Shown: positions 4,354 through 47,728 of the stretch, piece after piece
How positions within the stretch are numbered: the stretch's first letter is position 1
Layout: each line of letters starts with the position of its first letter
Assembly (NCBI GenBank): GCA_022829145.1
Contig: CM040762.1
Location: 23,554,436 to 23,618,435, forward strand
Origin: Albula goreensis
Lineage: Eukaryota > Chordata > Actinopteri > Albuliformes > Albulidae
Length of the DNA: 64,000 nucleotides
Direction: 5' to 3'
The notes under the pieces: generated by a model
Seen by the model: only the letters and a program-made list of their open reading frames with translations
Databases searched by the model: none
Told to the model about the DNA's origin: nothing
Made by a program: the position numbers and the translations under genes

Positions 4354-5286
4354 CATAAATATTTCCGTTACCCCCATGTTTTCTCGAAAAATCAACATCC
4401 AGTTTAGCTGCACCATGATGGCAAATGGCAGTTTATAAAAATGGCTTGATGACATTTCAGAGGCATGTCACGGCAGAGGGAACATTCTCAATGCAACTTG
4501 CTGTCATACTATCAGTGAAAACAATTCGATTTATCTTCTGTCTCACACACCCATGCGAACATAGCCTGGGACAGGAAAATGAGGAAGGAAACAGCATCTT
4601 GTCTGTTTGCCAGCGATGTTTCGCCAGGTGGTTTGATAATCTCCGTACTGTGTCAATCACTGCGGGACATGAATTCACACCACTTCAAAGTTCCCCGCAT
4701 TTGAGAGGTGGTGTAGAAAACGCAAGCTGCTGAATTTGCTCACAATGAGCTGAGTGGAAATAAATTCCTTCCTACTTTGCCAAAGTATTGGAGTCACACA
4801 CCAGTAAGCGAGCTCTGATTTGAAAAGCAGGAATCGGTCGCACACAGAGTGTGCAGTTCAGGCTGTCTGCCTTGCAGACTGTACGACTGCTGGAGACGCA
4901 AACGCTTTGGCAGTCCTGCCTGCGATTACGTAAAGTATCCTCCAGGATTAATCTAATGGACAAAATCAGGCGTGCTGATGGACTGGAGTGGTTTAGCATA
5001 GTGCACACTCAGCACATTGTTACACATTCGCTGTTTCCGGATGTGAATGGGCACACTTAGGTGTAATTTATGAACTATGATATCCAGATGAGCTGAGTCA
5101 CTGCATTGTGCCCTTTCAACTCAGTTCAGTTTATTTTAATTGCATTTTTTTATTCATCTCAAAGTGGCGACATTAAAACAAATAACAACAAGAAGAGACC
5201 AAACTGGACTGGACAGGGCTGCTTAAAGCTGAGCGCAGAGGAAATTGCATTTACTAGCAAATGGCATTGCTGTGTCTCTCCTCCAG
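4354..5286. other. mybpc2 intron, no feature resolved
   Basis: Intron between C8 and C9. Short open frames exist on both strands (4425-4733 for example) but none resembles a known protein and none has splice context. The polypyrimidine tract and acceptor for the C9 exon lie at the right end. Confidence 0.5.
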
Positions 5287-5426
5287 AGAAGCCAGGCCCC
5301 CCCGTGGCCGTGCACGTTACTGATGTGTGGGGCTTCAACGCCGCTCTGGAATGGAAGCCCCCTAAAGACAACGGCAATGCCGAAATCACCGGCTACACCA
5401 TACAGAAAGCAGACAAGAAGACTAAT
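5287..5426 (+). CDS. mybpc2: mybpc2 coding exon: first half of C9 FnIII domain
   Basis: The acceptor ctccag ends at 5286. The frame begins [16 protein letters not shown] and continues [20 protein letters not shown], the classic FnIII A-C strands with the Trp and the Pro-Pro-x-Asp-Gly loop. The donor gtgagt is at 5427, phase 0. A long CA repeat follows in the intron. Confidence 0.93.
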
Positions 5427-5475
5427 GTGAGTTTAGAGGTGGACAGTGCTACATATCAGAGCAATACATGCATGC

Positions 5476-5478
5476 ACA

Positions 5479-5514
<36 letters not shown>

Positions 5515-5519
5515 CGCGC

Positions 5520-5612
<93 letters not shown>
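5476..5612. repeat. (AC)n dinucleotide microsatellite
   Basis: About 65 nearly uninterrupted CA units, with a few cg/tg breaks, in the 345-base intron between the two C9 exons. They begin only about 50 bases after the splice donor. Highly likely to be length-polymorphic. Confidence 0.97.
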
Positions 5613-5614
<2 letters not shown>

Positions 5615-5771
5615 CAAATGTCCAGGAGTTACTTCTCAAGAGTAATCGAAGAGAACTTCTCAGGAGTAATCTAAGAGCAGATCTCAGGAGGAATGTTACA
5701 GACAGCTAATGTGAGTATAATTAGTCTGTCCAAAGCAGAACTCACACTATGTGTGGTTTGTCTCCGTACAG

Positions 5772-5931
5772 GAGTGGTTCACAGTGTATGAGCACAACAG
5801 GCGTCCGAGCTGCACCGTGTCCGATCTGGTCATGGGCAACGAATACATGTTCCGCATCTTCAGTGAGAACATTTGTGGGCACAGTGACGAGGTGGGAATC
5901 AGTAAGAACACTGCCGTCATCACCAAGACAG
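5772..5931 (+). CDS. mybpc2: mybpc2 coding exon: second half of C9 FnIII domain
   Basis: The acceptor tacag ends at 5771. The frame reads EWFTVYEHNRRPSCTVSDL, then GNEYMFRIFSENICG and ends NTAVITKT, with the FnIII Tyr-x-Phe-Arg and Asn-x-x-Gly motifs. The donor gtaccc is at 5932 and the phase is 1. Confidence 0.93.
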
Positions 5932-6018
5932 GTACCCGTTTCACAACAGGGCTGTGTAACTGGCATGCTCACCGTGGTCGGCATGCAGCACTATTTACAC
6001 TCCACTGTGGTTTCGCAG

Positions 6019-6155
6019 GTCTGGTGAAGAAAACGTCTCCGTACAAGGAGAAAGACATGAACCATTCGCCTAAGTTCACTCAGCCACTCATGGACAGGAC
6101 TGTCATTGCTGGCTACACCACTGCCATTAGCTGCTCTGTGCGTGGCTACCCCAAG
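6019..6155 (+). CDS. mybpc2: mybpc2 coding exon: C9-C10 linker and start of C10 Ig domain
   Basis: The acceptor cgcag ends at 6018. The frame reads GLVKKTSPYKEKDMNHSPKF, then TAISCSVRGYPK, including the B-strand Cys of the Ig fold. The donor gtgggt is at 6156, phase 0. C10 is the main myosin-rod binding domain in this family. Confidence 0.93.
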
Positions 6156-6385
6156 GTGGGTCTTTGTGTGTGTGTCTGTGTATTCTGTGCTTTGTTTGTG
6201 TCTGTAGGTCCGTGTGTATCCGTGTGTGTGTGTAAGGGGGTTTCCTAATGGCTCTAAGGTTTATTTCGTGATGGAGCGCTGCTATTGGTCCCTATTGGTA
6301 AGACTGTCAACATCAAGCTAGTCATTGTGGTGCTACTCCTGCATGACACCCTCAACGTCAGTCCTGTATCTCCTCCGTCTCCCAG

Positions 6386-9659: not shown

Positions 9660-11620
9660 AATTGCTGAAAAGACATAAGACAACAGTCTTACCTCCAAAA
9701 GTGGAAAAAAAAAAATGGGTTGACAGAAAAATATTTGATTTTTTTTTTTCAATTTAAATTGTGGTCAATTATCTAAATGAGACATAATTTAAAATAATAA
9801 AATCAAATATTTTTCTGCCAACCCATTTTTCCGCTTTTGGTGGTAAGGCTGAAGTCTTGTCTTTTCAGGAGAATATATACATCTCATTTACTCCCTTTCT
9901 AATCATTTCTGACAATTTATTCTCATGTGGGTGCATAAGACAGTTAATTTAGTATGATTTAAAGTAAAAAAAATAAAATATTTTTCTCACTTATGGAGGT
10001 GAGGCGAAAGTCTTACGTCTTTTCACAATTTTCAGGAGAACATATATACAGGAAGTCCTCCGGTTACGACGGTCTCGAGTTATGTCATTTTGTGGTTACG
10101 ACTCACTCCCACAAATTACTTAAAAAAAAAAAAAAAACATAGTTTCAACTTAAGCGGTTTGGCACGTCAAGACAACCACAGGAATAAAGGTAAGGAATTG
10201 ATATCTTTTTTTATACGACTATTTCATTTAATTACTGTTGTTTATATGTCCTTCATGAATTGTGTGTACAGTGTGAGTCACATAAGGTGTTAATTTAGGT
10301 ATAATTTAGGTATGAATTCCTACTTATGTTGAAAATCGGCTTACGAAACATTGTGGGAACGGCACTCGTTCATAAGTCGATGACACCCTGTACCTCTTTT
10401 AAACCCTTTCCAATCATTTCTGGCAACTTCTTCTCATGTGGGTGCATGAAACAGTAAATTTACGATGATTTAAAATAAAAAAATCTAATATTTTTCTGTG
10501 AACCCATTTTCCTCACTTTTGGAGGAAAGGCTCTAATATCTTTTCAGGAAAACTTTGGCACCCATGGGCAGATAGTACAGTTCATTTACTATGATTTAGA
10601 GTAAAAAAATCAAATATTTTGCTGTCAATCCATTTTTCTCACTTTTGGAAGTAAGGCTACATATCTTATATATAGTCTTATGTCTTTTCATGATTTTCAG
10701 GAGAACGTATACATCTCATTTACTCCCTTTCTAATCATTTCTGACAACTTTGGCACCCATGGGCACATAGTACAGTTCATTTACTACGATTTAAAGTTAA
10801 AAAATCAAATATTTTTCTGTCAACCATTTTTCTCACTTTTTGAAGTAAGACTATATTCTTGTGTCTTTTCACGTTTTTCAGGAGAACACATACATCTCAT
10901 TTACTACCTTTCTAATTATTTCTGACAGCTTTGGCAGCCATGGGAAGATAGTACAGTTCATTTACTACGAAATAGAGTAAAAAAATCAAATATTTTGCTG
11001 TCAACCCATTTTTCTGACTTTTGAAGGTAAAGCTATAGTCTTATGTCTTTTCAACTTTGGCACCCATGGGCAGATAGTACAGTTCATTTACTACGATTTA
11101 GAGTAAAAAAATCACATATTTTGCTGTCAACCCATTTTTCTGACTTTTGAAGGTAAAGCTATAGTCTTATGTCTTTTCACGATTTTCAGGAGAACATATA
11201 CATCTCATTTACTCCCTTTCTAATCATTTCTGACAACTTCATCACCCATGGGCAGACAGTCCAGTTCATTTACTATGATTTAGAGTAAAACAATCAAATA
11301 TTTTTCTGTTAACCCATTTTTCTCACTTTTGGAGGTAAGGCTTTAGTCTTATGTCTTTTCACAATTTTCAGGAGAACATATACATCTCATTTACTCCCTT
11401 TCTAATAATTTCTGACAACTTTGGCACCCATGGGAAGATAGTACAGTTCATTTACTACGATATAGAGTAAAAAAATCAAATATTTTGTGATCAACCAATT
11501 TTTCTCACTTTTGGAAGTAAGGCTATCGTCTTATGTCTTTTCACGATTTTTAGGAGAACATATACATCTCATTTACTCTCTTTCTAATCATTTATGACTA
11601 TCTCTTGTGGGTGGACAACA
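9660..11620. repeat. ~180 bp tandem satellite-like array with inverted first unit
   Basis: About nine direct copies of a 150-185 bp unit. Each contains tcttttcacgattttcagg, a gagaacatatacatctc block, tttactccctttctaatc, a cacccatgggcagatag or ttctcatgtgggtgcat variant, and a final aacccatttttctcactttt block. A copy of the last part lies in inverted orientation at about 9663-9760, forming a long inverted repeat with 9793-9873. Some copies are internally deleted. One copy is split by a MITE (10049-10390). No open frame of interest is present. Confidence 0.88.
10049..10390. mobile_element. 342 bp Tigger/pogo-type MITE inserted in the tandem array
   Basis: The element starts caggaagtcctccggttacg and ends cataagtcgatgacaccctg. 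It has CAG...CTG ends and is flanked by TA on both sides, as in pogo/Tigger elements. The array copy reads continuously across the insertion (acatata before, tacctcttttaaaccctttc after), so the empty site is visible from neighbouring copies. There is no transposase, so it moved in trans. Confidence 0.85.
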
Positions 11621-13667: not shown

Positions 13668-13711
13668 TCATATAACACTGTTTATAATGTCATATAAACA
13701 GTGTTATATGA
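13668..13711. repeat. 20 bp-arm palindrome at the retrotransposon insertion point
   Basis: The left arm tcatataacactgtttat and right arm ataaacagtgttatatga are inverted copies separated by a few bases. The outer edge of the right arm is exactly where the LTR element inserted. It could form a hairpin or cruciform. Confidence 0.85.
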
Positions 13712-14213
13712 TGTAGTGGCTAAAATGTTCCTTTCTTGTTCCTATGTTCTTTAGCCACTGTTGGAGCAACTGGTTGATTACACTGGTTATGACGCGTGTG
13801 TCTAAACGAAATTTCCAAATACATTTGCCGGGGAAACAATGATTTATTGGAGAACGTAAAAATAAACACTAATAAACGAAAGATAATTACATTCTACATT
13901 TACAGGTTTTCCTGTCCTTTAAGTAAACTCCTATAGAATTATGCACGCACAAATAAAGCGCACACAAATTCTCACAGTTCATATGAACACCCTAACACGG
14001 TCATACGTTCACACGCTCACACGCTCACACGGTCAAAACTTTTGTGCGCTCAAACCAGCAGTCATCTGAGGTCTGGGCAGCACACACCTTTATACCCTCT
14101 ATTCACCTATAGGGGCGCATGATTAACAACAGAAAATAATATAATATAAATATAACCATATTCTTCACTACAAATTAAACAGAAATACAATAATATATAA
14201 TATGGCTCCTACA
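13712..14213 (-). repeat. 3' LTR of the BEL/Pao element
   Basis: 502 bases, TG...CA ends. Read on the minus strand it is preceded by the purine-rich tract aggggccgg (about 14216-14224), a plausible polypurine tract. A short array of 8-base units (acgctcac) near the middle has one copy fewer than in the other LTR. Confidence 0.95.
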
Positions 14214-14380
14214 CACCGGCCCCTAATTGTATATGTATGAAAACATAACAATTATCATTTTTTTTTACAAGGAGCCTGTCGCAATATCCAATGTACAAAA
14301 ATGCATAACTCGTACAGATTTACAACACTAATAAATATTTCAAACTCTTTGGGGCCAGAGGTTACTAGCACTTAGCCCCT

Positions 14381-14660
14381 GTTGGGACCTGGTCTTTACC
14401 ACCAGTCCTAGGAGGTCATTCTTCTGCCTCCAGCAGCAGACAGATCTTTCCAGGATGCTTGTCCGGGTCTTAAGCCTCTCATACTTCGTACTAGTCCTTG
14501 TGAATCAGGCTTGAGTTCCAGTAATCTTCAAAGTACCCAAGAGCCACAAGGGGTTGTCGGGTCCACGACCATCATAATGTTTCCAATCTGGAATCCTTTT
14601 CTGACTACAGACCATGTCTGCCTATCCTACAGCAGGGGCAAATACTCCTGGATCCATTCC
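14381..14660 (-). pseudogene. BEL/Pao pol C-terminal domain remnant (DUF5641-like)
   Basis: Minus-strand residues include EYLPLL, RQTW, VVDPTTPCGSW, GLVRSMRLKTRT and CLLLEAE. These are the hallmark blocks at the extreme C-terminus of BEL/Pao Pol, after integrase. The remnant starts immediately after the captured host segment, which places one junction near 14650-14665. Treated as a fossil; not functional alone. Confidence 0.8.
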
Positions 14661-15735
14661 TACTCTTCCTCGCCCTCTTCTTTTGACTGGGCACTGTCAC
14701 TGTCCAGATCGTTCAGGCGTCTCTATTTACGCTTGCGTGCAGCAGACTGTAACCGGGGCGACTGCCCATTCTCCTTACCCTCCTCCTTCTTGACCTTCCA
14801 AAAGTCCAGCTTTTTGGTTCATTCTTTTCCTCTATTACTTTTTTCTTCCTGTACTTCCACCTGAGAAGGAGGGATGTTTTCATCACTCTTTCCTTTGTAC
14901 CACCTGTTCTTTCTTCAGAGCAGCATATAGTTTCACACAGCTGTCTGTGCTGGTGAGATGGGCAGAACCATTCTCCATCCGTGATAGTCATGAAAAGGGG
15001 GCAAAAGCAGGCAATGTAGTAGCCACCGTCACAGGAGTCGCACAGCTGTATTAGTTCAGGATGGTTGGGTAGGCCACAATGTTTGTAGGGGTCTTCATTA
15101 GGAGGAAGCCCACCTGAGAAGGAGGAGGTTTATGAGTCAATTCTGTTCCTGTTTCTGTTCCTATTCCTCCTCTTCCTATCCTTCTCCACCTTGTAATCTT
15201 CATCACTGTCACCATCATCAATCTCTTCGTCATTGCTGTCTTTCTTCTCCTGTCTGGCTAATAATGATGCTTGCTTCTTCTCCATTTTCATGTCCTGAAT
15301 TTCAGTCAGCTTGGCACTTGGCCAGCAAATTCTGGGGAATATCCTCAGAGATCTGCCTTCAGACTCAGAATCTGGTTTCCTCTCCTTTTTCTGAATCTCT
15401 GTCTTCTTTGGATGGACTGGAGGTGGGAGCTTCAGTTGGACATTCTCATCCCTCTTAGCTGCTCCTTTCTTTTGATGGCCTGCTTTGTCCTCCACTTTGG
15501 TGAGGGCAGAGCTTTCCAAATCTACCACCTTCCACTCATGGTTGCTTCCTTTAAGAAGAGACGCCAAAAGTGCAAAAGATTTCTCTGCCTTTTCAGATGG
15601 TAGGTGTGTGTTTGTCTCTTCAAAGCAGCAGCAGTGTCTTCACTGACAGCAGCGCTTCCTTTCTCCATTTCTGTGCTCATCATTGGTTGGTCAGAGACTG
15701 TGGGTGTTACAGGCTCAGTTTTTGTTATCTCTTTC
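14661..15735 (-). pseudogene. captured RSF1 cDNA segment inside the retrotransposon
   Basis: About 1.07 kb of minus-strand sequence in place of RT, RNase H and integrase. At about 14940-15099 it encodes a PHD zinc finger (CGLPNHPELI, then CDSCDGGYY, then DGEWFCP). Upstream (about 15275-15360) lies a block with GRSLR, PRI, SAKLTEIQDMK, comparable to the GRTLRRSPRISRPTAKVAEI region of vertebrate RSF1 as I remember it. Downstream (about 14692-14720) lies RRLNDLDSDS, also found in RSF1 after the PHD finger. Order and spacing match RSF1, with no introns and internal shortening between blocks, so it looks like a retro-transcribed mRNA piece. RSF1 is the histone-binding subunit of the RSF chromatin remodeler with SMARCA5. 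The copy is broken and sits in a retroelement, so a chromatin function is not implied. Confidence 0.83.
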
Positions 15736-16159
15736 TGAAATAGTTTGTTCCTTTTGAATTTCCTTTTCAGGCTTAAGAGACGCGGTTTCACAATATGGTA
15801 CTTAATAGGCATGACGGTACAATCCTTCCTGAAGGGTACAGTTCGACTATGTAGTCCATCGTGTGGCTTGATTGACTCCTCTGCTATCTTTACAAACCTT
15901 TTGTGCTCCAATGACATTTCAGGCTTGTCCTCCGATGACATCCCATTGAAGTCATGATTATGTTTGATCAACAGCTCCTCTGAGTTTGGAATGGAGATTC
16001 TATTTACAGTGATTGTATGACACCTACTCTTGTTGGCGACGTTATTACCTCTGAGAGGACCATTAACAACCCACCCCAATAGGGTTCTTACAGCATATGG
16101 CCCGTCTCCTCGACTGTTGATTATTTCCCAAGGTTCTATGATCTTGGTAGCATTGGTCC
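15736..16159 (-). pseudogene. BEL/Pao protease-to-RT linker and RT start remnant
   Basis: Minus-strand residues include PYAVRTLLGWVVNGPL, the conserved block between protease and reverse transcriptase in BEL/Pao Pol. Further on come FVKIAEES, HYxxPF-like residues and RLLSLKRKFKRN, which marks the RT N-terminus. The pol similarity stops near 15735, where the captured segment starts. Confidence 0.75.
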
Positions 16160-16852
16160 CTATAACAACTCCACATTAGCCTTTATTTGTGGAATCTGCA
16201 CTTCACTCAGATAAGGCCACCTGGTCAGGTCTTCCTTTGTGGGGATGTTTTCTGTGCTCACAGGCATGGTCTTCTGTGTGTACACCTCTGGCAACTCTAT
16301 GAAATTGTCACTGTCTAATCCAGAGATCTTCAAACCTGTAATGACATGTGAATGCACAGATTTCTCTTGATTCATGGTGCGCAGAAGGATGTTAGTTTTT
16401 CTTCCTGAGACATTCAACTGCTTCATCAGGCGCTCTGTGCAGAACGTGGCTGAGCTGCCTGGGTCCAAGAAGGCGTATGTCTGCATGTATTTGTTGCTTT
16501 TGCAGCTTTTAATCTTTACCGGAACAATAGACAACACACAATCTGTGTTACCGGCCCCAATATGCCCACATGCACTGAGAGACACCAGTGCACTGCTCAC
16601 AGGTGGGTCTACTGGCTGTTCTGCTGTTGTTTCTCTGATTTTATCTTTGTGTTTTATGTGAAGCACACTAGGGTGGGATAGGTTACACACACTGCATGTG
16701 AGACGCCTTTTGCAATCTTTGCTCATGTGACCTCTTGTCAGACAACCAAAGCAGATTCCTTTCTCCTTTAGAAAGTTGATCTTCTCCTGTGTGCTTGTTT
16801 CCTTAATTGTGGACATAACACCAATATATGACCACCTTTGCAGAACAGACAT
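16160..16852 (-). pseudogene. BEL/Pao zinc knuckle and aspartic protease region
   Basis: The frame shows a Cys-rich knuckle (CFGCLTRGHMSKDCK followed by CSVCNLSHPSVLH) and then a retropepsin-type segment with AFLDPGSSATF and TMNQEKSVHSH, as in DUF1758 proteases of BEL/Pao elements. It ends toward a WPYLSEVQIP block. Part of the fossil element. Confidence 0.82.
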
Positions 16853-17859
16853 CCTATTTGCAAACTTTCATCTTTCGGGGCTTGTGGTGGTGTGGTTTCT
16901 GTCATATTAACTACAGACACTCCTGTAGCAAAACTACTTCCTGTTTTGGGTCTTGATATTAGTTTAGTGGGAATTGATTTGACCTTGGGTTTAATGTTGC
17001 TGGTATCTGAATTTTGTATGTCACCATACACAGGGTCTGAAGTTATCCTAACCTGCTTCTCAATAAACTGCACCAAATCAATGAACCTGGCCCTCTGTCT
17101 GCTCTTTTCTTGTAGCTCACAAGCAACTGACCTCCACTTCTCCCTGAGCTTATATGGGAGCTTCAGAACAATACTTTTTAAGTTGGAGGTTAGGTCCAGT
17201 TCGTCCATATACTGCATGTCTTCCATAGAGTTGCAGCATCCTCTTAGAAACAGTGCATAAGCCTGTAAACCTTTGGGATCCTCAGGTTTGATGGTAGGCC
17301 ATGCGAGAGCTTTTTGCATGAAGGAAACAGAGATTTTGTACTCGTTACCATAATGCTCACATAACAAGTTCTTTGCCTTCTCATAACCTCTGTCTGGAGC
17401 CATGTGTAGGCAACTTCTGACAAGATCACGAGCTTGACCTCTGGTGTACTGCTCCAGATAATACAGCCTGTCCTTGGCTGCCTCTGTGTTTTGCTCAATC
17501 ACATGTTCAAAAGATTTGAGAAATGACTGGAACTGTAGAATGTCTCCATCGAAGGCAGTAATTTCTCTTGGTGGCAAGGTGGAAAGAGCCTGTTGTCTGA
17601 CCATCATGGTGCTAATTTCATTTTGTCTCTCCAGAACTGCAATGAGACTGTCTTGATCTGTTCTACTCTGTGCAGGGGGTCCTGCACCCTGGGTCTGTGC
17701 TGCCCTGGGAGCTCCTTTGGAATGGGCCTGCACAGAAGGCCCCTGGGCCCGTCGGCCTGGGCTATGACTCTGCGTCACATCCCACTCTCTGAGATCTTCA
17801 TGAGCTGAATGTTGAACAGGAAGTGGGATTTCTGTTTTGGGAACACACTTTGTATCCAT
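16838..17859 (-). pseudogene. BEL/Pao Gag central region (DUF1759-like)
   Basis: Residues such as ITAFDGDILQFQSFLKSFE, RLYYLEQYTRGQARDLV, AKNLLCEHYGNEY and VLKLPYKLREKWR are typical of the DUF1759 Gag domain of BEL/Pao elements. It is followed by a first CxxCKGGHxxxxC-like knuckle. It overlaps the previous and next Gag/protease stretches in other frames. Confidence 0.85.
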
Positions 17860-18734
17860 GTGTCTGGTGTGCTTTCTTGTTCCTTCACCTGATGGAAATC
17901 CAGGTCTGAGGTTTTGTATCGGACTGCCAAGTCCTCAAAGTACTCATTCATGGGATCCATTGATGTTGGGTTTACATCCTGCGCACCTTTCAGAATGTTG
18001 ATTTTGGCTGTTGTGGCTGCTATTTCAGTTTGGAGTTCCAGAGTTTCTCTCCTTTTCCTTAGTTCATCCTTCTGTTTGTTAAGCAGCTCTTCCTTGTCCT
18101 CTAGAGCATGCTTTTCCTTCAAAGCAGCAGCCTTTGTAAGCAAAGCGGCCTTTTCTGCCTCTGCCTGGATGCGGGCAGACGATGTGGACGATCCACTTGA
18201 GTGTGTGCTTCTCCTGCTTGACCTGCCAGACCTGTGGCTTGAAACTGAAGAAACATTGTCATTGAGTGCAAAGTCATCACTGGGATATGGGTTGGGTTTC
18301 TCTGCTGCAGTCAGCCATTTAGACACAGAGGAGAGGAAGGCATGGATACAGTCAAGCTTGGGCCTATACCATGTTAACTCATCATGTCTACGGTCATCCT
18401 CAGTCAACAGTTGTTGATAAGAAATGTTCAATGTTTTGAATTCATCAAGCATCCCATTGTATTTCACCATGTTCTCTTTCACTTCCTCCACATTCACATT
18501 ATCAGCCATAAGCTCGTTAACAATGTTCATGCGTCGGGTAAGATGGGACATTTTTCCTGTTCTAGAAGCACGCATTTGTGCTGTTTTCTCTACCAGTTCC
18601 CTTCCTGATAAACCCTGTTGCAGCATGTTTGTATTCGAATCCGAATCAGAAGCATCCATTCCACTCGACAAATTAACTGTACTTATATTTCTTTTCCAGT
18701 AGAAACAGTTCAAATGAATGCAGTTCAAATCCAA
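17775..18734 (-). pseudogene. BEL/Pao Gag N-terminal region (coiled coil)
   Basis: About 320 codons beginning near the 5' LTR. A helical N-terminal part (ELVEKTAQMRASRTGKMSHL) is followed by a Ser-rich spacer and a strongly charged Ala/Glu/Lys coiled coil (ARIQAEAEKAALLTKAAALK onward). This is the usual N-terminal arrangement of BEL/Pao Gag. The leader between it and the 5' LTR (about 18735-19096) has no obvious primer-binding site that I could assign. Confidence 0.75.
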
Positions 18735-19096
18735 TAACGATTCAGTTTCAATTTCAATGCTATTGATGCGTTGATGTAATAATTGCGTTTATTCCCGAAT
18801 CATTCACTGCCCATTCCTTTGTTCAATAGATATGGCGGGAATTTATTCCCAGAAATGAATTCCAGCAGTATATTCCACAAAGTTTAAAAAGTATAAACAG
18901 CCAGCCAATCACTTTTATTCCAGTTAGCTTTTATATCGGTCAGCTCACAGGGTATTACATACCACCGCCGATTTCGTCCTTTAATTCTCCGCTTTTTTCC
19001 CGAGCATCCTTTGTTGTGCTGTGAATAACACGCGCTCTTCAAACAATCCAAATACGGTCCATTGCTTCAGGTAATCCACAGAAAAGTTTTGACTTT

Positions 19097-19606
19097 TGTA
19101 GTGGCTAAAATGTTCCTTTCTTGTTCCTATGTTCTTTAGCCACTGTTGGAGCAACTGGTTGATTACACTGGTTATGACGCGTGTGTCTAAACGAAATTTC
19201 CAAATACATTTGCCGGGGAAACAATGATTTATTGGAGAACGTAAAAATAAACACTAATAAACGAAAGATAATTACATTCTACATTTACAGGTTTTCCTGT
19301 CCTTTAAGTAAACTCCTATAGAATTATGCACGCACAAATAAAGCGCACACAAATTCTCACAGTTCATATGAACACCCTAACACGGTCATACGTTCACACG
19401 CTCACACGCTCACACGCTCACACGGTCAAAACTTTTGTGCGCTCAAACCAGCAGTCATCTGAGGTCTGGGCAGCACACACCTTTATACCCTCTATTCACC
19501 TATAGGGGCGCATGATTAACAACAGAAAATAATATAATATAAATATAACCATATTCTTCACTACAAATTAAACAGAAATACAATAATATATAATATGGCT
19601 CCTACA
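19097..19606 (-). repeat. 5' LTR of the BEL/Pao element
   Basis: 510 bases, same TG...CA ends as the partner LTR, with one extra 8-base unit. Carries the promoter of the element by family rule; no TATA box is confidently assigned. Confidence 0.95.
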
Positions 19607-20034
19607 TATGATATTTATATTGTATAAAATATTATTCTTCCAACAAACTTTTAAACTGTAGCTCCTTCTGCAGTTTACACTTTATTTTAATACTTTAAAA
19701 AATTATAAAAGAATTTTAAAAAATAATAATGTAGGAGGCTCTTTCAAGCTGAATTGAAATTGATAAAATTTCATGTTCTAATTAGGCATATTTAGAACTT
19801 CAAAAAGACAAAAAAATATAAACAGTTTTGTACAGTACAGCAACGTCGTCGTTTCATAGTTGGCACCCTTTCACTCGTTCATAAAACATATATAGTGATT
19901 TGGAAGTCCCACTATTGCAGACGTATGTTTCCAGTTAGCTCATTTGTCATTCTGACAGAATGACAGAATCAGTGTATGAGAGAAGCAGGATCACAGTGTT
20001 TATATGAACCGGCAGTGCCGGAGGAGGAACTAAC

Positions 20035-20948: not shown

Positions 20949-21138
20949 CTTAGCCTGGTAGGTTATTTATCAAGATGCGACTAAACCGTGTAGCAAACCC
21001 ACTCTTTCCCATTGCTGCCCATGTCCTCCTTCATCCTGTACAGACTGATCATGTTCTAGAATTTTCTACTCTGTACCACAGGATTCCTGTGGATCCTGTG
21101 GGACTACCAATGTAATGTCACCTAATTGGCACTGCGGA

Positions 21139-21745
21139 TGCCACCCTGTGCATGCCAGCCCTGTGCACTGTGGACGCTAGCCCTGTGCACTGTGGATACT
21201 AGCCTTTTGCACTGCAGATGCTGGCCCTGTGCACTGCGGACGCTAGCCCTGTGCACTGCAGATGCTGGCCCTGTGCACTGCGGACACTAGCCCTGTGCAC
21301 TGCGGACACTAGCCCTGTGCACTGTGGACACTAGCCCTGTGCACTGCAGATGCTCGCCATGTGCACTGCGGACACTAGCCCTGTGCACTGCAGATGCTAG
21401 CCATGTGCACTGTGGGGCACCAGCCCTGTGCACTGCAGATGCTAGCCATGTGCACTGTGGGGCACCAGCCCTGTGCACTGCAGATGCTAGCCCTGTGCAC
21501 TGCGGACACTAGCCCTGTGCACTGCAGATGCTAGCCCTGTGCAATGTGGGGCACTAGCCCTGTGCACTGTGGGAACTAGCCTTTTGCACTTAGGATGTTC
21601 GCCCTGTGCACTACGCAAGCTAGCCTTCTGCCCTGTGGATGCTGGCCTTGTACACTGTGGATGTTAGCCCTGTGCATTGCAGACGCTAGTCCTGCGCACT
21701 GCGGATGCCAGCCCTGTGCACTGTGGACGATAGCCCTGTGCAACA
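21139..21745 (+). repeat. minisatellite, ~22 bp unit (gccctgtgcactgyggacrcta)
   Basis: About 27 imperfect copies of a 22 bp unit centred on gccctgtgcactg, with alternating cagatg / cggaca / tgggg variants giving a partly higher-order pattern. Both strands are open; no real protein. Confidence 0.93.
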
Positions 21746-28025: not shown

Positions 28026-28029
28026 TCGT

Positions 28030-29210
28030 GGGGCTCCTGTGTGTGGGGGTCCTGTGTGTGTGTGTGTATGTGTGTATGTGTTTCCTGTGTGCTGGGCTGT
28101 GGGGAGGTTCCTGTGTATTTGGGGTTCCTGTGTGTGCAGGGTTCCTGTGTGCAGGCTGTGGAGGTTTTGTGTGTGTGGGGTTCCTGTGTGTGTGTGCAGG
28201 GTTCCTGTGTGCAGACTGTGGAGGTTTTGTGTGTGGGGGTTCCTGTGTGTTTGGGGTTCCTGTGTGTGCAGGGTTCCTGTGTGCAGGCTCTGGAGGTTTT
28301 GTGTGTGTGGGGAGGTTCCTGTGTGTTTGGGGTTCCTGTGTGTGCAGGGTTCCTGTGTGCAGGCTGTGGAGGTTTTGTGTGTGTGGGGTTCCTGTGCGTG
28401 CAGGGTTCCTGTGTGCAGGCTGTGGAGGTTTTGTGTGTGTGGGGTTCCTGTGTGTGTGCAGGGTTCCTGTGTGCAGACTGTGGAGGTTTTGTGTGTGTGG
28501 GGGTTCCTGTGTGTGCAGGGTTCCTGTTTGCAGGCTGTGGAGGTTTTGTGTGTGTGGGGTTCCTGTGCGTGCAGGGTTCCTGTGTGCAGACTGTGGAGGT
28601 TTTGTGTGTGGGGGTTCCTGTGTGTGCAGGGTTCCTGTTTGCAGGCTGTGGAGGTTTTGTGTGTGTGGGGTTCCTGTGTGTGGAGGTTCCTGTGTGTGCA
28701 GGGTTCCTGTGTGCAGGCTGTGGAGGTTTTGTGTGTGTGGGTTCCTGTGTGTGGAGGTTCCTGTGTGCAGAGGTTCCTGTGTGCAGGCTGTGGAGGTTTT
28801 GTGTGTGTGGGGTTCCTGTGTGTGGAGGTTCCTGTGTGTGCAGGGTTCCTGTGTGCAGGCTGTGGAGGTTCCTGTGTGCAGGCTGTGGAGGTTTTGTGTG
28901 TGTGGGGTTCCTGTGTGTGGAGGTTCCTGTGTGTGCAGGGTTCCTGTGTGCAGGCTGTGGAGGTTTTGTGTGTGTGGGGTTCCTGTGTGTGTGGGGGGTT
29001 CCAGTGTGTGCAGGGTTCCTGTGTGGGTCCTGTGTGTGTGGTGTTCCTGTGTGCAGGCTGTGGAGGTTTGTGTGTGGAGGTTCCTGTGTGTGCAGGGTTC
29101 CTGTGTGCTGGGCTGTGGGGTTCCTGTGTGCAGGCTGTGGAGGTTCTTTATGTGTGGGGTTCCTGTGTGTGTGTGTGCGGTTCCTGTGTGCAGGCTGTGG
29201 GTGTCTTGTG
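28030..29210 (+). repeat. 1.2 kb GT-rich minisatellite, ~57 bp unit
   Basis: About 20 copies of a compound unit: gttcctgtgtgcaggctgtg, gaggttttgtgtgtgtgggg and a ttcctgtgtgtgcagg linker, with deletions and a ggaggttcctgtg variant. All three plus frames and two minus frames are open for about 400-480 codons because the unit lacks stops. These are not genes. Confidence 0.96.
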
Positions 29211-31430
29211 TCATGGGTTCCCAAAGATCAACAATGAGACCCCATCTGTTTAAGCTTCACCCTGTTAGTTAGTGGGCCCATACATAAGCTCCGTGAGCCA
29301 GGCTGCCCTGGTTTCCACTCTCACTCTGGGACTCTGGGAGACTTGGCCTCTGGGAGACGAGCCTCTTATCCAGCCAGTCCCACAAGCCTGTTTGCCCTTG
29401 TTCATTTGGCCCATTCATACTATACTGGCTGCTTTGCCACCAGCTGGACAGACATGTGTAGTGCTGGGCAACACTGGATTACTGTCCCACTTCCTGTCCC
29501 ATGTCCCATGTGCTTTTTTCCTGATCTACTGCCAGTGAGTACCATCGCCGCAGCCACTGGTTTAAAAGCTGTAATGTTATTTGCAGCTGGACGTGTTGAT
29601 TGAATAATGTAAGGCTATTGTCATGGTGACTCAGGAGTATTAGCCAGTATTATCATTCAAACAGCCATATTCTTTTCACACTTAATTTATTTAAGTCTAT
29701 TTGCCCTTGGTGCAAATAATTGCGATAGCGTCACAAATCTAGCACATCTGTGAATAAAACAGTTTTATCCTGCAAATACTTAAGTGTCACCTTGGAGCAG
29801 GAACTATTGTGGAATTAGCTGCAATATAGACTTTTAATAAGGCGGTGAATCAATGAATAGAATTCATGTTTTCCATGGATTTTCACGTCGTACCATGTTT
29901 CATCGAGCCGCGCAGATCTGTGTTTTGGGAGTGCTGTTTTTACTGTGTTTGTCAACATGCCAAAAAAGGGAATTTATTGGCTTGGTTGCCTGGTAACTTA
30001 TGTTCATCTTATGTACTACAATGATTATAAACGGAAGGCATGTTTCTACATAAATGGCAATGGTGAGACTACCTCGCTTTGCAGAGGAATTGCCTTTGTC
30101 CCTCACATCTGTATGCTAAAATAATCTTGCATAACCACACTCTAATTCACATTAACCCTTACTAAATGGTGCGTTCGTTTTTAAAATGCCTCATGCGGAA
30201 CGCAAACTAGGCTGAAGGAGAATTTTCGATTTTGACCTCCGCGCACTCACCGTGGTCACTCTCACCTTCAGCTCCTCGGTCCAAAGTGCTTGATCGGCAG
30301 TGCCGCAGCTGTCCCTCCCACGGTGACATCATTATTGCCTACTTGCAGCTTGTCAGCCGTGCTGACAGCAGGTGACAATATCAATAATGGCAGTGACAGC
30401 ATACGCTGGCCAGCGCAGCACAACCACCCCCCTCCCCCCACCTCACCTTGCCTTGGCATCCCAGGGACAGAGAGGGGGTATGTGGCCAATCCAACAGCAT
30501 GGTAACAAGGGAGCAGATGTGGAAACGAGGTGGGTCATGGCAACCGGGTATACTGGTGTCCTGCGTGCCGTTGGGACACTCAACCCAAAACATTTCATTA
30601 AATGCTGGCTCCAGAAACAGTTCAGACTCTGCGGTGCATGCAGAATCATACTGGAAGAATTAAAATTCATAAGTCAGAAACATGGATTGCTCCTTCAACG
30701 TGCATGACTAATGATCAACAATGTAATGCCCTTTTGTACATATTAAATACTTGTAAATATCTTGTGTATCATTATTTTTTGAAACATTTGCTGCTTTTTG
30801 TCCACCTAATTAAAAGATGTATAAATATATAAATAATCGAAAATGAAATCATTGCTGTTCTATTAATGGAAAATATGTTGGCGAAAACACCACTGCTGTG
30901 TAGTAAACCCACCCAAGCAAATCAACATGGAAAGGGGATGAGGAAATAAAAAAAAACAGAAAGAAATGAACCAGCAAGCCATGGACATACTGTACAGCAC
31001 CAAACAAGCACAGGGGAGCCTGAGAGAGAGGGAACATCAGCAACAGAGGAACGGAGAGAATTATAATTATACTGGTAATTATACATTATTTCACAGAATG
31101 GAAATAGAAAGGGCAGGAGCAGTAGGGAAAATCAGTCTCGTATAATTACAGTGCAGACACCTTGTGGGACTCGGGGAAGAAGGAAACAGTTAGAACACAT
31201 GCGGCACATTCTGACATCGCGCGGGCACACTCAGATGCATGCCTTCTGCGCAGAGACACCATCACACTGCTCCTCCGTATGACTCCACTGAACGCCCATT
31301 ATTTTGCCTGTGGATGCCACAGACTTAACACAATTATTGACCATTTTTAAACTCGTACCAAATAAGGTTTATGACAGTAAAGGTAAGAGCCAATACCTGC
31401 ATGTTATATGTAACCCAATAGACAACTGAA
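29211..31430. other. intergenic; candidate regulatory patch 30300-30410
   Basis: No gene recognised. At 30319-30410 the sequence has paired tgtcag / ctgacag and caggtgaca motifs around attattgcc and caataatggc, an almost mirror arrangement that suggests a regulatory element. An RFX-like X-box lies at 29985-29997. Confidence 0.4.
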
Positions 31431-34879: not shown

Positions 34880-35435
34880 GACCACTCTGTAAACACTGTG
34901 GCACATGTAACCAATCACAACAGACCGCTCTGTGAGCACCATGGCACATATAACCAATCACAGCAGACTGTTCTGTAAGCACTGAGGCACATATAACCAA
35001 TCACAGCAGACTGCTCTGTAAGCACTGTGGCACATGTAACCAATCACAGCAGAATGCTCTGTAAGCACTGTGGCACATGTAACCAATCACAGCAGACTGC
35101 TCTGTAAGCGCTGTGACACATGTAACCAATCACAGCAGACTGCTCTGTAAGCACTGTGGCACATATAAGAAATCACAGCAGACTGCTCTGTAAGCGCTGT
35201 GACACAGATGTAACACTATGGCACATATAACCAATCACAACAGACTGCTCTGTAAGCACATATAACCAATCACAGCAGATGAGCAGCACATATAACCAAT
35301 CACAGCAGACTGCTCTGTGAGCACTGTGGCACATATAACCAATCACAACAGACTGCTCTGTAAGCACTGTTGCACATATAACCAATCACAGCAGACTGCT
35401 CTGTGAGCACTGTGGCACATATAACCAGTCACACG
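34880..35435 (+). repeat. minisatellite, ~43 bp unit containing CCAAT
   Basis: About 13 copies of a unit of the form gcacatataaccaatcacag plus cagactgctctgtaagcact plus gtg. Each unit holds an accaatca CCAAT-box-like core. A few copies are shortened. Confidence 0.95.
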
Positions 35436-38400
35436 AGACTTAACGTTAAAGAGTGTTTGCACTTTCAAAAGGAAAGGGACTGCAAAGCAGGAGATGCATG
35501 CTGATAGAGACCACACTATTATAGGGGATCCTAAATATGTAAAGGAGATTAAATCCAGTATTCTCCATTTAATTTTGTTCAACGCTGATCTAACGAAAAT
35601 GTGACAGTCCTAACCTCACATGGCATGTGTCATTAGCAACCTTGCGGGCCTGGGTGAAGTTTGTCCCTACTGCCACACTGTCCCTCTGCCCCCCACCACC
35701 TTGGGATTTCTGCCAACGCTGAGAATTTATGACACGTTTGTTTGTGACTGCAAGTAAGTGTGCTTTCCTGTTTTGTGTGGATAAGAGCATTTTCATGGTT
35801 TGCATGGGTACCTGTGTGTAAGTAATTTGGGCAAAAAAGTAGTATGGTTGTCTGTTTTTAGCTGCGACCAGCAGCTCTATAGCTTGTCGGTCGATCTGCA
35901 AAAATTTCCCCACCCTTTGGCAGCCGCAGTTTTCGCCCTGTAGGCTGAAATTTGCCATGGAGGTCAAGTGTGTGTGTGTGTGTGTGTGTGAAGGAGTGTG
36001 TCTCTGTTCATGCCCATTGGCTAAAAGGGGGCGTGGCAGTGGGAGTGGCCTGGTCGCAGCTATTACAAATTCGCACTTGTTTGTTGATGTCCTTAGTGTC
36101 CACTAAGGTTTGTTTTGTGTTTGCGTGCATGGGTTAGTTACGCGCTTGTGTGGTCGGGTTAAACGAATGTTGTGTCAGTGTGGTTTGGTTAGTTTTGTGT
36201 TGTTGAGGGTGGGTTAGTTTTGTGTTGGTCTGGGTCTCTTGTGTTGTCATTTCTCTCTCTCACTCTCTTGACCCCTATTTTTCAATCAATAACTCATCTC
36301 TTAATGCCGATTTCCCTCTTCCCCCACAGGCAAACAAACGTCCTTCTCTGGGACAAACGGGGGGGGGGCGGTAGTACACACACATACACACACACATTCA
36401 CACATACACACACACCGGCTAGTTTTTGAACAGGCATAATGATCGAACCCCCCATCGCCACTGTATCTGCAAGGATCCTGTCGTACCACTGCAGCCCGGA
36501 GGGTCCGGCGGAACTGACACAGGCCTCCTCACATCTGATCTGGGGACTGACACAAAAAGATCATCTGCTACAGTGGCCGACTCATCCCAAGATGGACAGA
36601 GCAACAGTGCACCGTAAGTATTCCAGTTCCAAGCAACAGTGCGGGCTGACCTTTTCACTAGGATAAAAAATAAACCAATTTTTTTTCTTTTTGTCATTCT
36701 CTGACCCCTTCTTCTCTCAACACCATCTGTCTTCCCTCCACCAGCATCACATCCTACACTACAGCCGTCCGTTCCTGTGTTTCTTGGCCACATTTTTCAT
36801 GAGGACCACTTGCTGTTGATACCGATTTAAAGAACACATATTAAAACTGTTCTGGGTAGATCTGGGCACGGACGATATTCAGCACAGTGTTTAAATCGCT
36901 GGCGTTTGTGCCAGATGGTAGGTGGTTTGAATCCCAGGTATTTCACCTCAGTTAAAGGAATCACAGCTGTGTTGGGCTCTGTAAGATACCCCACGTAGCG
37001 CTGCCCGCTGACAAAATGCCCATTGCCCAGACGAAAGAACAGAATCTCTATTATTCAAACATTCACTTACCATTTATGTGACACTGATCTCATTGAACAC
37101 ACAACTACGCACGCACACCTACGCAAACACATGTAAATGTGTTAAAAAACAATTTGGTGGGTCATTAATAATGAGATTAAGGTGAGCCATGTGTACTCAC
37201 GTGCTAACGTGACCCTCACTCTGGTTGGGTGTAGAGTTTCACCCGGAGCCAAATGCAGGCCCAGTGGTGACCAACGCGCCCTGGAGATGCTGGAGTCGGA
37301 GGCAGAGGTCAACTCTGAGGTCACGACATCTCAAACTGCCCTGCAGGCTGTCCGTCTGCTGAGACTGAATCTCTCATACACTGACCGACATCGTGATAAC
37401 ATAAAATGCTAATGCTCTGCCATAGCCCTCCAAACAAACCCATGCTATCATACCCACTCACTCATACAGTTAAATGACCCGACAGAGTTACAACCATTTT
37501 GTATAAACAACAATATCATTTTTATTCCAGAAATTGCTCAGTATGGCACAATATCATTGAATTGCTGTTAAGAAAACGGTTTTTGGCACAGACCTTCATT
37601 AGAACATAACTGAACTCAAACCCCCAGCCTTGCCACTCTTCCATGGCAAGACCACACCGATGGTTATAGACACAATCCAAATCACAACGATTCTGAACAT
37701 TTTTGTTTCAGTGGGATGTCTTAAATGGCCAAACAAAAGGAACAGATGGAGGTCATGTTTAATTTAACAGCGGACAGGAGTGCCAGTTGTATTTTTCCTG
37801 AGAGAAGGAAGAGGAAAGGGTGAACTTGGGACTGAGAGAGGACAGGACTGGGAGAGGGATTCAAGATTTCCCTTCTTCTCCTTCTTTAAAGCCTCACTTG
37901 ACTGTTCCTGACTTTCGTCAGCTGTATATCATAACGATCGAAGCCCAGAAATTGGCATATCAGTGAGAGTATGATTATTTTGGCAACAAGAGCTGGCTTT
38001 CTGACTTCCTCTTAAAACCATTTCTCCCTCAATGTCATGTACGTTCGTATACATTACAGACCTAACATAGTTAACCCGTTCATATTGTTTCGGAGCAATA
38101 TTACTCAGCTAGGACCCAACTAGTTCCCTCAACCCCAGAAATCATCACACTATACTCTCCAAGTTATTGGTATTTCTTCAAGTAAAATGAGGAACTGGCT
38201 TGAGTGACCCTCTGAGAGTTAAGAATGGGGGCGCCATCAAAGCATGAAGCTCAAGTGACCTCTCTCCTCAGATAAAGAATAATGTCTTTTACTTTATCTA
38301 CATCTGAGGAGCGGAGAGTGAGGGAAGAGGAATGAGTGGAGAAATGAAGCGTGCCGCTTGACTTGGAGGAGCTTGAAAGAGCAGGGGAGTGAAGTCATCG

Positions 38401-45722: not shown

Positions 45723-47728
45723 TCATATTTGAGTCTCTTGGACATTTTCCTTCGAGCCACTTTTGAACAGGAGAGGTTCGATTTGAGGGTTCTGGCTCTT
45801 ACCCATAAGACCCTTGAGAGATCCGTGTATCCCCAAAGGCGGGAGGGGCAGAGGTGACATTGAGCTGGGGTTGGGGCTGGTGCCGCTTCCAGACGTGTTC
45901 TGAAAACTGGACGAGGAAATGGGAACTGGGGTGCAGGAAATAGGGTTAGACTGGGATGGCTGGGAAAGGGGGGAGGGATTGTTATTGTTGTTGAGAACTC
46001 CACCCCCTACCCCTGTCCCATGGCCCATGCCAATCATATTGTTGTTGAAATGGTGTGTCTTGTAGTAATGGTTCAGATGATCGGCTCTGGCCAGATTGGG
46101 AAGGTTGACGATTTCGGGGTGGTGCAATCGTAAGCTCTGCCCTCCCCCGCTGCCTACCCCACCTCCAGAGTGAATGGTGGACCCCCCCGAAATCCCGCTC
46201 CCGCGTCCGGCGGCCCCCCCGGCTCCGATCTCGTCCTCCACGTTGATGATCTCGATGGCCCGGGCGGGCCCGTGGTGCTTGTGCAGCTGGTGCTGCTTCC
46301 GCAGCTTGTAAAAGACCACCAGCATCACCGCGGCCATGAACGTGATGGCCACGAAACAGCCGATGATGATTTTGGTGGTCTTCATCACGTCGTCCAGGCC
46401 ATTTACGTCAATAATGCCCGTAATGGGTACCGTCACTGCAGGGTCTGGGGATCTGGTGGCTCGGGGGGACGACCAAGATGAAACAGAAGATGACGTGGTG
46501 GCTAAAGTTGTTCCCACACCCCAAATATCTCCTGGGGGGGTAGGACCCAGAGAATGGATTATAGATGCATTTATTTCTGGACGCGGTTGATTACTTTCCC
46601 CAGGCTCTACGGTTTCCACAGTAACGGTGGTAAAGTAGGTGTAGTTGATGTTGACGTCAGCCGCCGTGACGTTGAGCACAGCCGTTGCCGTGGTGTTGCC
46701 GGCCGAGTTGGTCACCATGCAGGTGTATTGCCCCGTGTCCCGGAGGGTGACGTTGGTGAAGTTTAGGGTCCCGTCGTGCAGGACGGAGATCCTCACCCTG
46801 TAGGACCCGTGGGTCATGAGGGTGCCGTTTGGGGTTATCCAGTTGACCGAGGTCATCGACGTCCCCGTCCTGCACTTCAGTTCAGCCGCCATTCCCTCGG
46901 TGACATTCAGGTCGGTCGGGGGCTCCACGATCACGGGGGCGTAGCAGGTGAAGTGACTCTGGTCCAGTTCGCCGATGTACCGGCCCTTCAGCACAGGCGG
47001 GGCGTGGCAGCGGGCGCAGCAGGTGGTGTTGCTGGGCACCGTTTCCTTCAGCCACCAGCTCAGCCATAGTACGTCACAGTTACACACCCACGGGTTATGG
47101 TTGAGATGCACTCTCTCCAGCTTCTGCAGAGGCGTGAAGAGGTCATGTGGGAGGGAGTGCAGGGAATTATGGGAAAGGTTCAATTCCTCCAAGGCCTTGA
47201 GGTCATCAAAGGCATTGCGCTCGATGACCGACACCTGCGAGTGCATGAGCCAAAGCTTGCGGAGCGACACCAGGCCCTGGAAGAGCCCGGCCGGATGATC
47301 TTCAGCTGGTTTCCAGAAAGTTCCAGCTCTTCCAGACGCACCAGGGCCGTGAGGTTGGGGATGTCCTTCAGCCCACACATGCCCAGGTTCAGGTAGCGCA
47401 GGTTGATGAGCCCAACAAAGGCCGCATCGGATATGTAGTCCAGCTTCTTAAGCTCGCCCAGGTCGAGGCGGCGCAGCGACGGCACGCGGTGGAAGGCGTA
47501 CCCGGGCAGGGTCTCGATGGGGTTGTTGCGCAGCCAAAGCTCGCGAAGCTTGCTGAGATATTCAAAGGCCTGGGAGGGAACCAGCGTGAGCCGGTTGTCG
47601 AACAGCTCCAGGGTGTTGAGGTTCTGCAGGCCATTAAACGCGCCCACTTCGATCTGTCGGATGTGGTTCTTGGAGAGCTGTAGGATTTCCAGGTGTCTCA
47701 GCTGTTTGAAAGTGTCGGACTTGATCAC
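45723..47728 (-). CDS. lrrc4b: lrrc4b main coding exon (LRRs, LRRCT, Ig, TM, PDZ ligand), with a one-base frameshift
   Basis: Netrin-G ligand 3, a postsynaptic adhesion protein that binds LAR-family receptor phosphatases and PSD-95. On the minus strand the acceptor tgccag precedes 47728 and the frame opens [20 protein letters not shown]. It then shows about eight LRRs, an LRRCT cap ([18 protein letters not shown]), one Ig C2 domain (AAELKCRTG, then [15 protein letters not shown]), a Thr/Ser stalk, a membrane segment ([20 protein letters not shown]) and a Gly/Asn/Ser-rich cytoplasmic tail ending KENVQETQI with a tga at 45723-45725. LRRC4B is favoured over LRRC4 and LRRC4C by the Gly-rich tail and [14 protein letters not shown] end. 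The frame slips by one base inside the sixth or so LRR near 47279-47286 (gggctcttccagg where one more base is expected), either an assembly error or a real lesion. Full length with the first exon would be about 750 residues. Confidence 0.93.

Follow-up and report, generated by a model that had tools for sequence, protein, structure and literature searches.

Captures of host genes by long terminal repeat (LTR) elements often come to light as isolated chimeras in a state of decay. In acutely transforming retroviruses, captured host mRNA replaces replication genes, the joins arise by template switching and a helper mobilises the defective element in trans. Here we describe a BEL/Pao retrotransposon of Albula goreensis, referred to as the RSF1 element, in which a fragment of the mRNA of the chromatin-remodeler gene rsf1 takes the place of the core of pol. 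The analysis started from a copy in a stretch of 64,000 nucleotides (assembly GCA_022829145.1, contig CM040762.1, positions 23,554,436 to 23,618,435), called the window below. An earlier note, made from the letters of the window, had proposed that a BEL/Pao element transduced spliced rsf1 mRNA and lost its own pol core. This proposal is largely supported, except that a family was found and not a lone chimera. As in acutely transforming retroviruses, replication genes are replaced, and mobilisation in trans and template-switch joins are probable; unlike them, the RSF1 element carries no oncogene, no envelope gene was seen in it, and it presumably spreads by germline retrotransposition only.

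Several described captures come close to the RSF1 element. LTR-mediated retrocopies of metazoans (Tan et al., 2016, as cited in PMC5408686 and PMC9674220) are likewise intronless host mRNAs joined inside an LTR element at short microsimilarities, which template switching tends to leave according to the relevant passages of these papers (PMC5408686; PMC9674220). From the retrocopies described there the RSF1 element differs as an LTR-flanked, multi-copy and recently moving lineage for which the switch points, a likely donor and a pol-intact relative are visible. Crocodilian endogenous retroviruses (ERVs), which captured KIT-ligand and nectin3 mRNA, are similar in being multi-copy vertebrate germline retroelement lineages with host mRNA, whereas they are retroviruses in which nectin3 cost env and KIT-ligand no domain, and the RSF1 element is a BEL/Pao element whose pol core was replaced (PMC4299795). 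Moreover, purifying selection is reported for their cargo open reading frames (ORFs), in contrast to the near neutral state found here (PMC4299795). Maize Bs1 is also an LTR retrotransposon with host gene fragments; it belongs to a plant and combines pieces from three genes, while the RSF1 element is a vertebrate BEL/Pao element with one gene and many copies (PMC13317346). In Plutella xylostella, Pxyfem is a template-switch retrocopy tied to LTR element sequence and present in 11 copies, but as described its elements are fragmented, LTRs were not found, the orientation is inverse and a silencing role is given, all unlike the RSF1 element (PMC9674220). In the available text of a paper on BEL/Pao elements in metazoan genomes, capture is mentioned for env only, and the literature searched, with partial coverage, yielded related captures and no BEL/Pao element with an RSF1 cargo. 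The RSF1 element is a host-mRNA transduction by an LTR element, of the same kind as Bs1, the crocodilian ERVs and the LTR-mediated retrocopies, and it differs from known captures in being a BEL/Pao element, in having lost the pol core and not env, in its occurrence at a dozen places and in an apparent exchange of backbones.

The window holds a single BEL/Pao LTR insertion on the minus strand (13712-19606), composed of gag (DUF1759), a protease region, the start of the reverse transcriptase (RT), 1,075 bp of RSF1-like sequence (the cargo) and the end of pol. Both LTRs start with TG and end with CA, and TATGA, a 5-bp target duplication, lies directly outside of them, as is the case for BEL/Pao LTRs. 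The LTR pair is identical at 502 of 502 aligned bases, one missing 8-bp unit being the sole difference. Of the combination of a DUF1759 gag with an aspartic protease that marks BEL/Pao elements, gag matched above the Pfam cut-off (1e-8) and the protease just below it (3e-4). Compared with a copy whose gag-protease frame is open, the window copy has three 1-bp deletions, which interrupt that frame. A Pao-type pol with RT, peptidase A17 region, integrase and DUF5641 is replaced in this copy, which keeps the RT start and most of DUF5641. Judged by its sequence, the window copy is a defective derivative of the BEL/Pao family and not a full member. That the family is BEL/Pao, as the earlier note had it, was confirmed by the DUF1759 match and by a relative on contig C17 with Pao peptidase A17, RT, integrase and DUF5641 (the genome searched comprised 931.9 Mb in 208 contigs, which are labelled C1, C2 and so on). 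The features of the insertion are, in window coordinates:

13707..13711, no strand: target site duplication TATGA, left copy (5-bp match)
13712..14213, minus strand: 3' LTR in element sense, 502 bp, TG...CA (LTR pair comparison)
14214..14660, minus strand: C-terminal pol remnant (DUF5641 region, as judged from the C17 relative) and 3' terminus of the internal region
14661..15735, minus strand: cargo, a captured stretch of rsf1 mRNA in the orientation of the element (RSF1 protein and rsf1 gene matches)
14661..14946, minus strand: cargo, rsf1 exons 8, 9, 10 and 12 in part, exon 11 deleted
14947..15051, minus strand: cargo, rsf1 exon 7, exact join to exon 8
14953..15087, minus strand: cargo, PHD finger, 3 of 8 zinc ligands lost in the window copy
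15052..15222, minus strand: cargo, rsf1 exon 6 (3' part), exact join to exon 7
15130..15132, minus strand: in-frame TAA (GAA in the host) directly before the PHD finger
15223..15479, minus strand: cargo, rsf1 exon 5, second part, ending at the 171-nt deletion across the exon 5/6 join
15244..15357, minus strand: cargo, altered UAB-equivalent region (H2AK119ub-binding in RSF1), RRSPRICRP changed to RIFPRICWP
15480..15735, minus strand: cargo, rsf1 exon 5, first part, 72% identity to the C2 gene, ending at the 528-nt internal deletion
15736..16175, minus strand: RT start, ending ...KRNKLFQ, in frame into the cargo
16160..16867, minus strand: aspartic protease region (Asp_protease_2, just below cut-off) and a weak zinc knuckle (Pfam)
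16768..17934, minus strand: gag, DUF1759 part (Pfam)
17775..18788, minus strand: gag, N-terminal part (open reading frames)
19097..19606, minus strand: 5' LTR in element sense, 510 bp (LTR pair comparison)
19607..19611, no strand: target site duplication TATGA, right copy (5-bp match)

The earlier note had read from the letters alone a PHD finger with blocks on either side, the order of these parts and two junctions with pol, and sequence and protein matches located all of them at those positions; alignment of the joins in 16 units placed the boundaries at 14661 and 15735 to within a base or two. When the cargo was searched against proteins, 185 of 3663 candidates matched at E<=0.001, the best RSF1-named protein at 4e-44, so that the proposed similarity to RSF1 held. 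Among the 120 matches listed, most were named remodeling and spacing factor 1 and came from fishes and other vertebrates. The PHD-bearing ORF matched solved PHD structures (best match 6e-9), and the Pfam PHD model scored 15.9 bits on the cargo, below the cut-off of 24. The top protein match, P0001, is a hypothetical protein of Albula glossodonta and itself a gag-RSF1 chimera, with 99% identity to the window over 110 aa of gag and 90% over 191 columns of RSF1; it also has protease pieces and 27 aa of the window's 3' pol end. A Vps26 domain in P0001 probably belongs to a neighbouring gene. A second protein search, covering shorter proteins only, gave four matches and no further chimera, and patterns from 145 aa of the RT side had no match in viral contigs.

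In the same genome, an intron-bearing rsf1 gene was found on C2, to which the cargo can be aligned from exon 5 through exon 12. The comparison with this gene, which the earlier note had suggested, revealed introns where the cargo has none: the exon joins 6/7, 7/8, 8/9 and 9/10 are exact in the cargo, and the four missing introns have GT donors and AG acceptors in C2 rsf1. Such exact absence of donor introns is also a mark of LTR-mediated retrocopies. The intron inside the PHD finger is also visible in P0121-P0124, short predicted proteins that diverge from RSF1 right after NHPEL. The start assigned to exon 5 is the point where the protein match begins and not a checked acceptor. Over aligned bases, host rsf1 on C2 and the cargo share an identity of 0.889-0.903 in the 16 units with full-length cargo (full units). 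A second intron-bearing rsf1 gene, apparently a paralogue, lies at C11:33.49 Mb (L037); it was set aside as donor with four matching stretches that are only 76-87% identical to the cargo. As this match is weaker than that of C2, C2-type rsf1 is the likely donor.

The two switch points were then compared between element, host and cargo. At the 5' switch, the cargo-less relatives read TTTCAGAAGGAGTACA, host rsf1 GAAAAGAAAGAGATAACA and the cargo TTTCAGAAAGAGATAACA, and pol and rsf1 share AGAA(A/G)GAG, 8 nt with one mismatch. At the 3' switch, host rsf1 reads GAGGAAGAGTTTCG, the cargo-less relatives CTGGAAGAGATGG and the cargo GAGGAAGAGTAGGAATGG, with the shared 7-nt stretch GGAAGAG. Both ends of the cargo thus show the microsimilarity known from LTR-mediated retrocopies. 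No full unit departs from the common base at the RT-side join (16 of 16). The other join is conserved in 14 of 16; of the remaining two, C16 has three unaligned bases there and C4:44.0 lacks 26 bases across it. The earlier note had suggested a look for junctions at rsf1 exon boundaries; instead, the cargo starts within exon 5 and stops within exon 12, which is also compatible with template switching. The capture is in frame with pol. All 16 full units have the 528-nt, the 171-nt and a deletion of about 155-175 nt (exons 10-12) in common, which argues for one capture. Where the cargo is deleted internally, the alignments on the two sides share 2 nt (528-nt deletion), 6 nt (171-nt deletion) and 10 nt (deletion of about 159 nt); short overlaps at joins and deletions are the pattern expected of template switching by RT.

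A search of the genome for further copies returned full-length cargo matches at 16 places with 90-100% identity. Four pairs of units lie about 5.1-5.4 kb apart and form LTR-internal-LTR-internal-LTR arrays, and the 16 units therefore correspond to 12 insertions on 10 contigs. A search for other copies with the same two junctions was a check suggested in the earlier note, and its outcome favours the proposal made there. These copy counts are lower bounds. One further insertion at C4:0.25 Mb has a shortened cargo, and four relics (C25, C7:35.49, C19:3.2 and C2:49.67) carry rearranged or truncated cargo. Exon 11 sequence, absent from the 16, survives in two relics, at C7:35.49 and on C25, the latter with portions of exons 9 to 12. 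This indicates that the cargo shrank over time. In the full units the cargo replaces the pol core in 16 of 16. A 5-bp target duplication was found around all single insertions in which both LTRs are complete (8 of 8, including C4:0.25) and on the outer flanks of 4 of 4 arrays (flanks compared by eye); C7:41.47, a single insertion with truncated LTRs, was left out of this count. The chimera was hence integrated as an LTR element with target duplication, as LTR-mediated retrocopies are. The LTR pairs of four of the eight testable single insertions (window, C2, C11 and C7:41.03) are free of substitutions, and the most diverged pair is that of C16 (Kimura two-parameter distance 0.045). Lacking RT core and integrase yet recently inserted, the RSF1 element behaves as a non-autonomous LTR element.

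The share of two-unit arrays, 4 of 12 full-cargo insertions with one 5-bp duplication around each whole array, seems high. They are located at C21:1.22-1.23, C19:4.58-4.59, C15:10.81 and C22:26.08 Mb (L009/L010, L012/L013, L015/L016 and L022/L023) and arose either from LTR recombination after insertion or from co-integration. At C25:4.36 Mb (L024), RSF1 pieces occur twice and their order is jumbled, as recombination between two cargo RNAs might leave them.

Cargo flanks without cargo were found, for example on C17 and at C8:40.79, with about 2.95 kb between the flanks. The C17 copy has an open frame of 1421 codons through pol. Searched in five pieces, its pol yielded RT, Pao peptidase A17 (2e-51), integrase and DUF5641; peptidase A17, the integrase zinc-binding domain and DUF5641 scored above the Pfam cut-offs, RT and the integrase core below. 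ATAAT lies on both sides of this copy. Its LTRs have one gap between them and match the window 5' LTR at 508 of 510 positions with 2 bases different, and mobilisation of the RSF1 element in trans by such a pol-intact relative with near-identical LTRs appears probable. Between C17 and the window, gag is 99% and the protease-RT flank (RT-side 1 kb) 93% identical.

Divergence from C17 was followed along 14 of the 16 units (C19:4.593 and C7:41.47 were left out). In 14 of 14 it is high next to the cargo, at 14.2-15.4% over the 300 bp leading up to it and 9.0-15.2% over the 200 bp that follow. Farther out on the RT-protease side it drops to 3.9-7.0% and then to 2.0-5.2%, and it is 0-5.8% in the remaining 3' end and 0.4-6.3% in the LTRs. 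Over the 300 bp that precede the cargo position, the divergence between C17 and C8:40.79, which both lack the cargo, is 1.3%. In the window, 72 of 497 flank bases differ, as against 4 of 1257 bases in the LTRs plus the 3' end (p about 3e-36), and within 14214..14660 the last 246 aligned bases are without difference from the C17 copy. The high divergence of the flanks together with the low divergence of the LTRs suggests, as the simplest reading, that an old cassette of cargo and pol flanks recombined into young backbones; exchange in the opposite direction is possible. Movement after the loss of pol, the pol-intact relative, the shrinkage of the cargo and the apparent recombination into younger backbones go beyond the earlier note.

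Taken together, we consider it highly probable that rsf1 mRNA was captured by template switching and that the lineage spread with the aid of helpers, exchanged its backbone and carries its cargo as a passenger. Spliced rsf1 mRNA would have been packaged by a BEL/Pao element, and during reverse transcription the enzyme would have jumped from pol RNA to rsf1 mRNA and back to pol at shared stretches of 7-8 nt. In place of some 2.9 kb of pol, comprising the RT core, the integrase and the sequence between them, the element would thereby have acquired the rsf1 fragment, which shrank through internal deletions, at once or later. The defective lineage, retaining LTRs, leader, gag and protease, would be moved by the RT and integrase of pol-intact relatives, and recombination upon co-packaging would swap its backbone with theirs, so that the old cassette may now reside in young elements. 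The cargo of today would be a passenger without protein function.

Some observations weigh against parts of this scenario. The first 256 bases of the cargo are only 72% identical to the C2 gene, compared with 83-93% outside this first exon-5 part, and the cargo has a 23-nt and a 12-nt insertion absent from that gene, so that the sequences compared do not include the exact donor allele. After the shared GGAAGAG, the cargo reads TAGGA, present neither in the host nor in the cargo-less copies examined. Pol domains were read in one relative only (C17); C8:40.79 is a further cargo-less copy with the same spacing. A tree built from the RT-side 1 kb unites the three cargo-less copies (97/98) but gives no clear position to the old cargo copies C25 and C7:35.49 or to the deepest fork, so that a single origin rests on the common joins and deletions and not on the tree. 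Finally, the part of the cargo before the shared stop has acquired no new stops, and its substitutions (N34:S16, dN/dS 0.67-0.80) differ significantly neither from neutrality nor from gag.

These last points bear on the idea that a Gag-protease-RSF1 fusion is useful to the element, for example by tethering particles or integration to nucleosomes via the RSF1 reader region. For such a fusion speak the in-frame capture, the absence of any new in-frame stop ahead of the shared one, against an expectation of about 2, and the cargo's coverage of both the PHD finger and the UAB equivalent. The UAB domain is given as RSF1 770-807, taken as human numbering (PMC10389277); its equivalent, placed via rodent RSF1, is window 15244-15357. 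Moreover, C7:41.03, whose LTR pair has no substitutions, is open over 1018 codons upstream and 257 codons into RSF1, and the other copies have 248 in-frame RSF1 codons (one copy), 202 (four) or 9 to 143 (ten; n=16). To analyze selection, nonsynonymous (N) and synonymous (S) changes were compared in 16 copies with assumed transition weights of 2 and 4. Gag-protease-RT-start is under purifying selection (N153:S117, ratio of nonsynonymous to synonymous rates (dN/dS) 0.45-0.53, p 3e-10 and 4e-7), whereas the whole cargo is near neutral (N82:S28, dN/dS 0.96-1.14, p 0.83 and 0.60), and the two differ (p=0.001). For the cargo after the shared stop, N48:S12 and a dN/dS of 1.37-1.62 were obtained, with no significant difference from the cargo before the stop. 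The comparison of host with cargo gave a dN/dS of 0.39-0.58, values that constraint acting on the host gene alone could explain. Against a useful fusion also stands the state of the domains. The PHD finger recognised in the earlier note is present but damaged in the window copy, where Tyr replaces both Cys1 and His5 and His replaces Cys8; a TAA closes the reading frame ahead of it. Cargo ligands were placed with C4HC3, which we take to be the zinc ligand pattern of PHD fingers. The Cys8 ligand is lost in 16 of 16 full units (His in 13, deletion in 3) and all eight ligands are found in none, so that a functional PHD finger in the cargo was set aside; one Arg to Trp change in the UAB-type region is likewise common to 16 of 16. 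The TAA before the PHD finger is common to 12 of 16 full units and a TAG further on to 15 of 16, and the frame that enters from pol ends after 9 to 143 codons in 10 of 16. A useful fusion is therefore improbable, and we give equally little credit to a fusion once selected, in which a helper-dependent lineage would have used the stolen nucleosome-reading region for chromatin targeting and passed the cassette between backbones; function of the cargo is unlikely, and past function conceivable.

Even less probable is that the cargo acts as RNA, giving small RNAs that silence or modulate host rsf1 in the manner of the W-linked PxyMasc retrocopies of Plutella xylostella. About 89% identity to rsf1 exons and the many copies would suit such a role, for which the moth offers a described precedent, but the cargo lies in sense to the element while the moth copies are inverse to the gene transcript (PMC9674220). 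An intronless cargo would also be expected if a processed rsf1 pseudogene made by a long interspersed element (LINE) had inserted into a BEL element whose pol was later deleted. This is very improbable, as both cargo ends lie inside coding sequence with no poly(A) at the join, the ends meet pol at microhomology with the intervening pol missing, and the 5-bp duplications flank the LTRs; LINE-type ends, a 3' poly(A) and a target duplication around the cargo, were not found. An assembly chimera or chance similarity deserves next to no weight. Many 1-bp indels do lie in homopolymers, making base-level frames partly unreliable: 30 of 126 single-base indels fall in homopolymers of at least 4, which hold 4.8% of bases, and 98 of 126 in array units. 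Yet the same joins occur in 16 full units on 10 contigs with differing target duplications, and the same fusion is found in the Albula glossodonta protein, a separate record, which makes the assembly join considered in the earlier note very unlikely. The downstream array units (L009, L013, L016 and L022) account for 73 of the 126 single-base indels while their substitutions are not above those of other copies; this excess suggests that repeats were insufficiently polished during assembly, and part of the single-base frameshifts may be assembly error.

Within a single assembly, the likely donor gene and a pol-intact relative can be seen alongside both probable switch points, stepwise deletions and some twelve insertions, which document with unusual clarity how a mobile element can acquire a gene of its host. 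The steps from capture to a spreading, helper-dependent lineage thereby become datable and testable. The mosaic further suggests how a defective cargo element escapes death, namely by recombination of its cassette into fresh backbones.

Elsewhere in the window, exon-like stretches were seen at 5100-6248 on the plus strand, one of them with an fn3 domain, which presumably resemble myosin-binding protein C. Two overlapping ORFs at 45726-47773 on the minus strand contain leucine-rich repeats and an immunoglobulin domain, and we take them to be like LRRC4/netrin-G ligand. Minisatellite arrays are numerous (9787-11598, 21084-21742, 28028-29211, 34885-35440 and 60856-61582), some of them with long chance ORFs.
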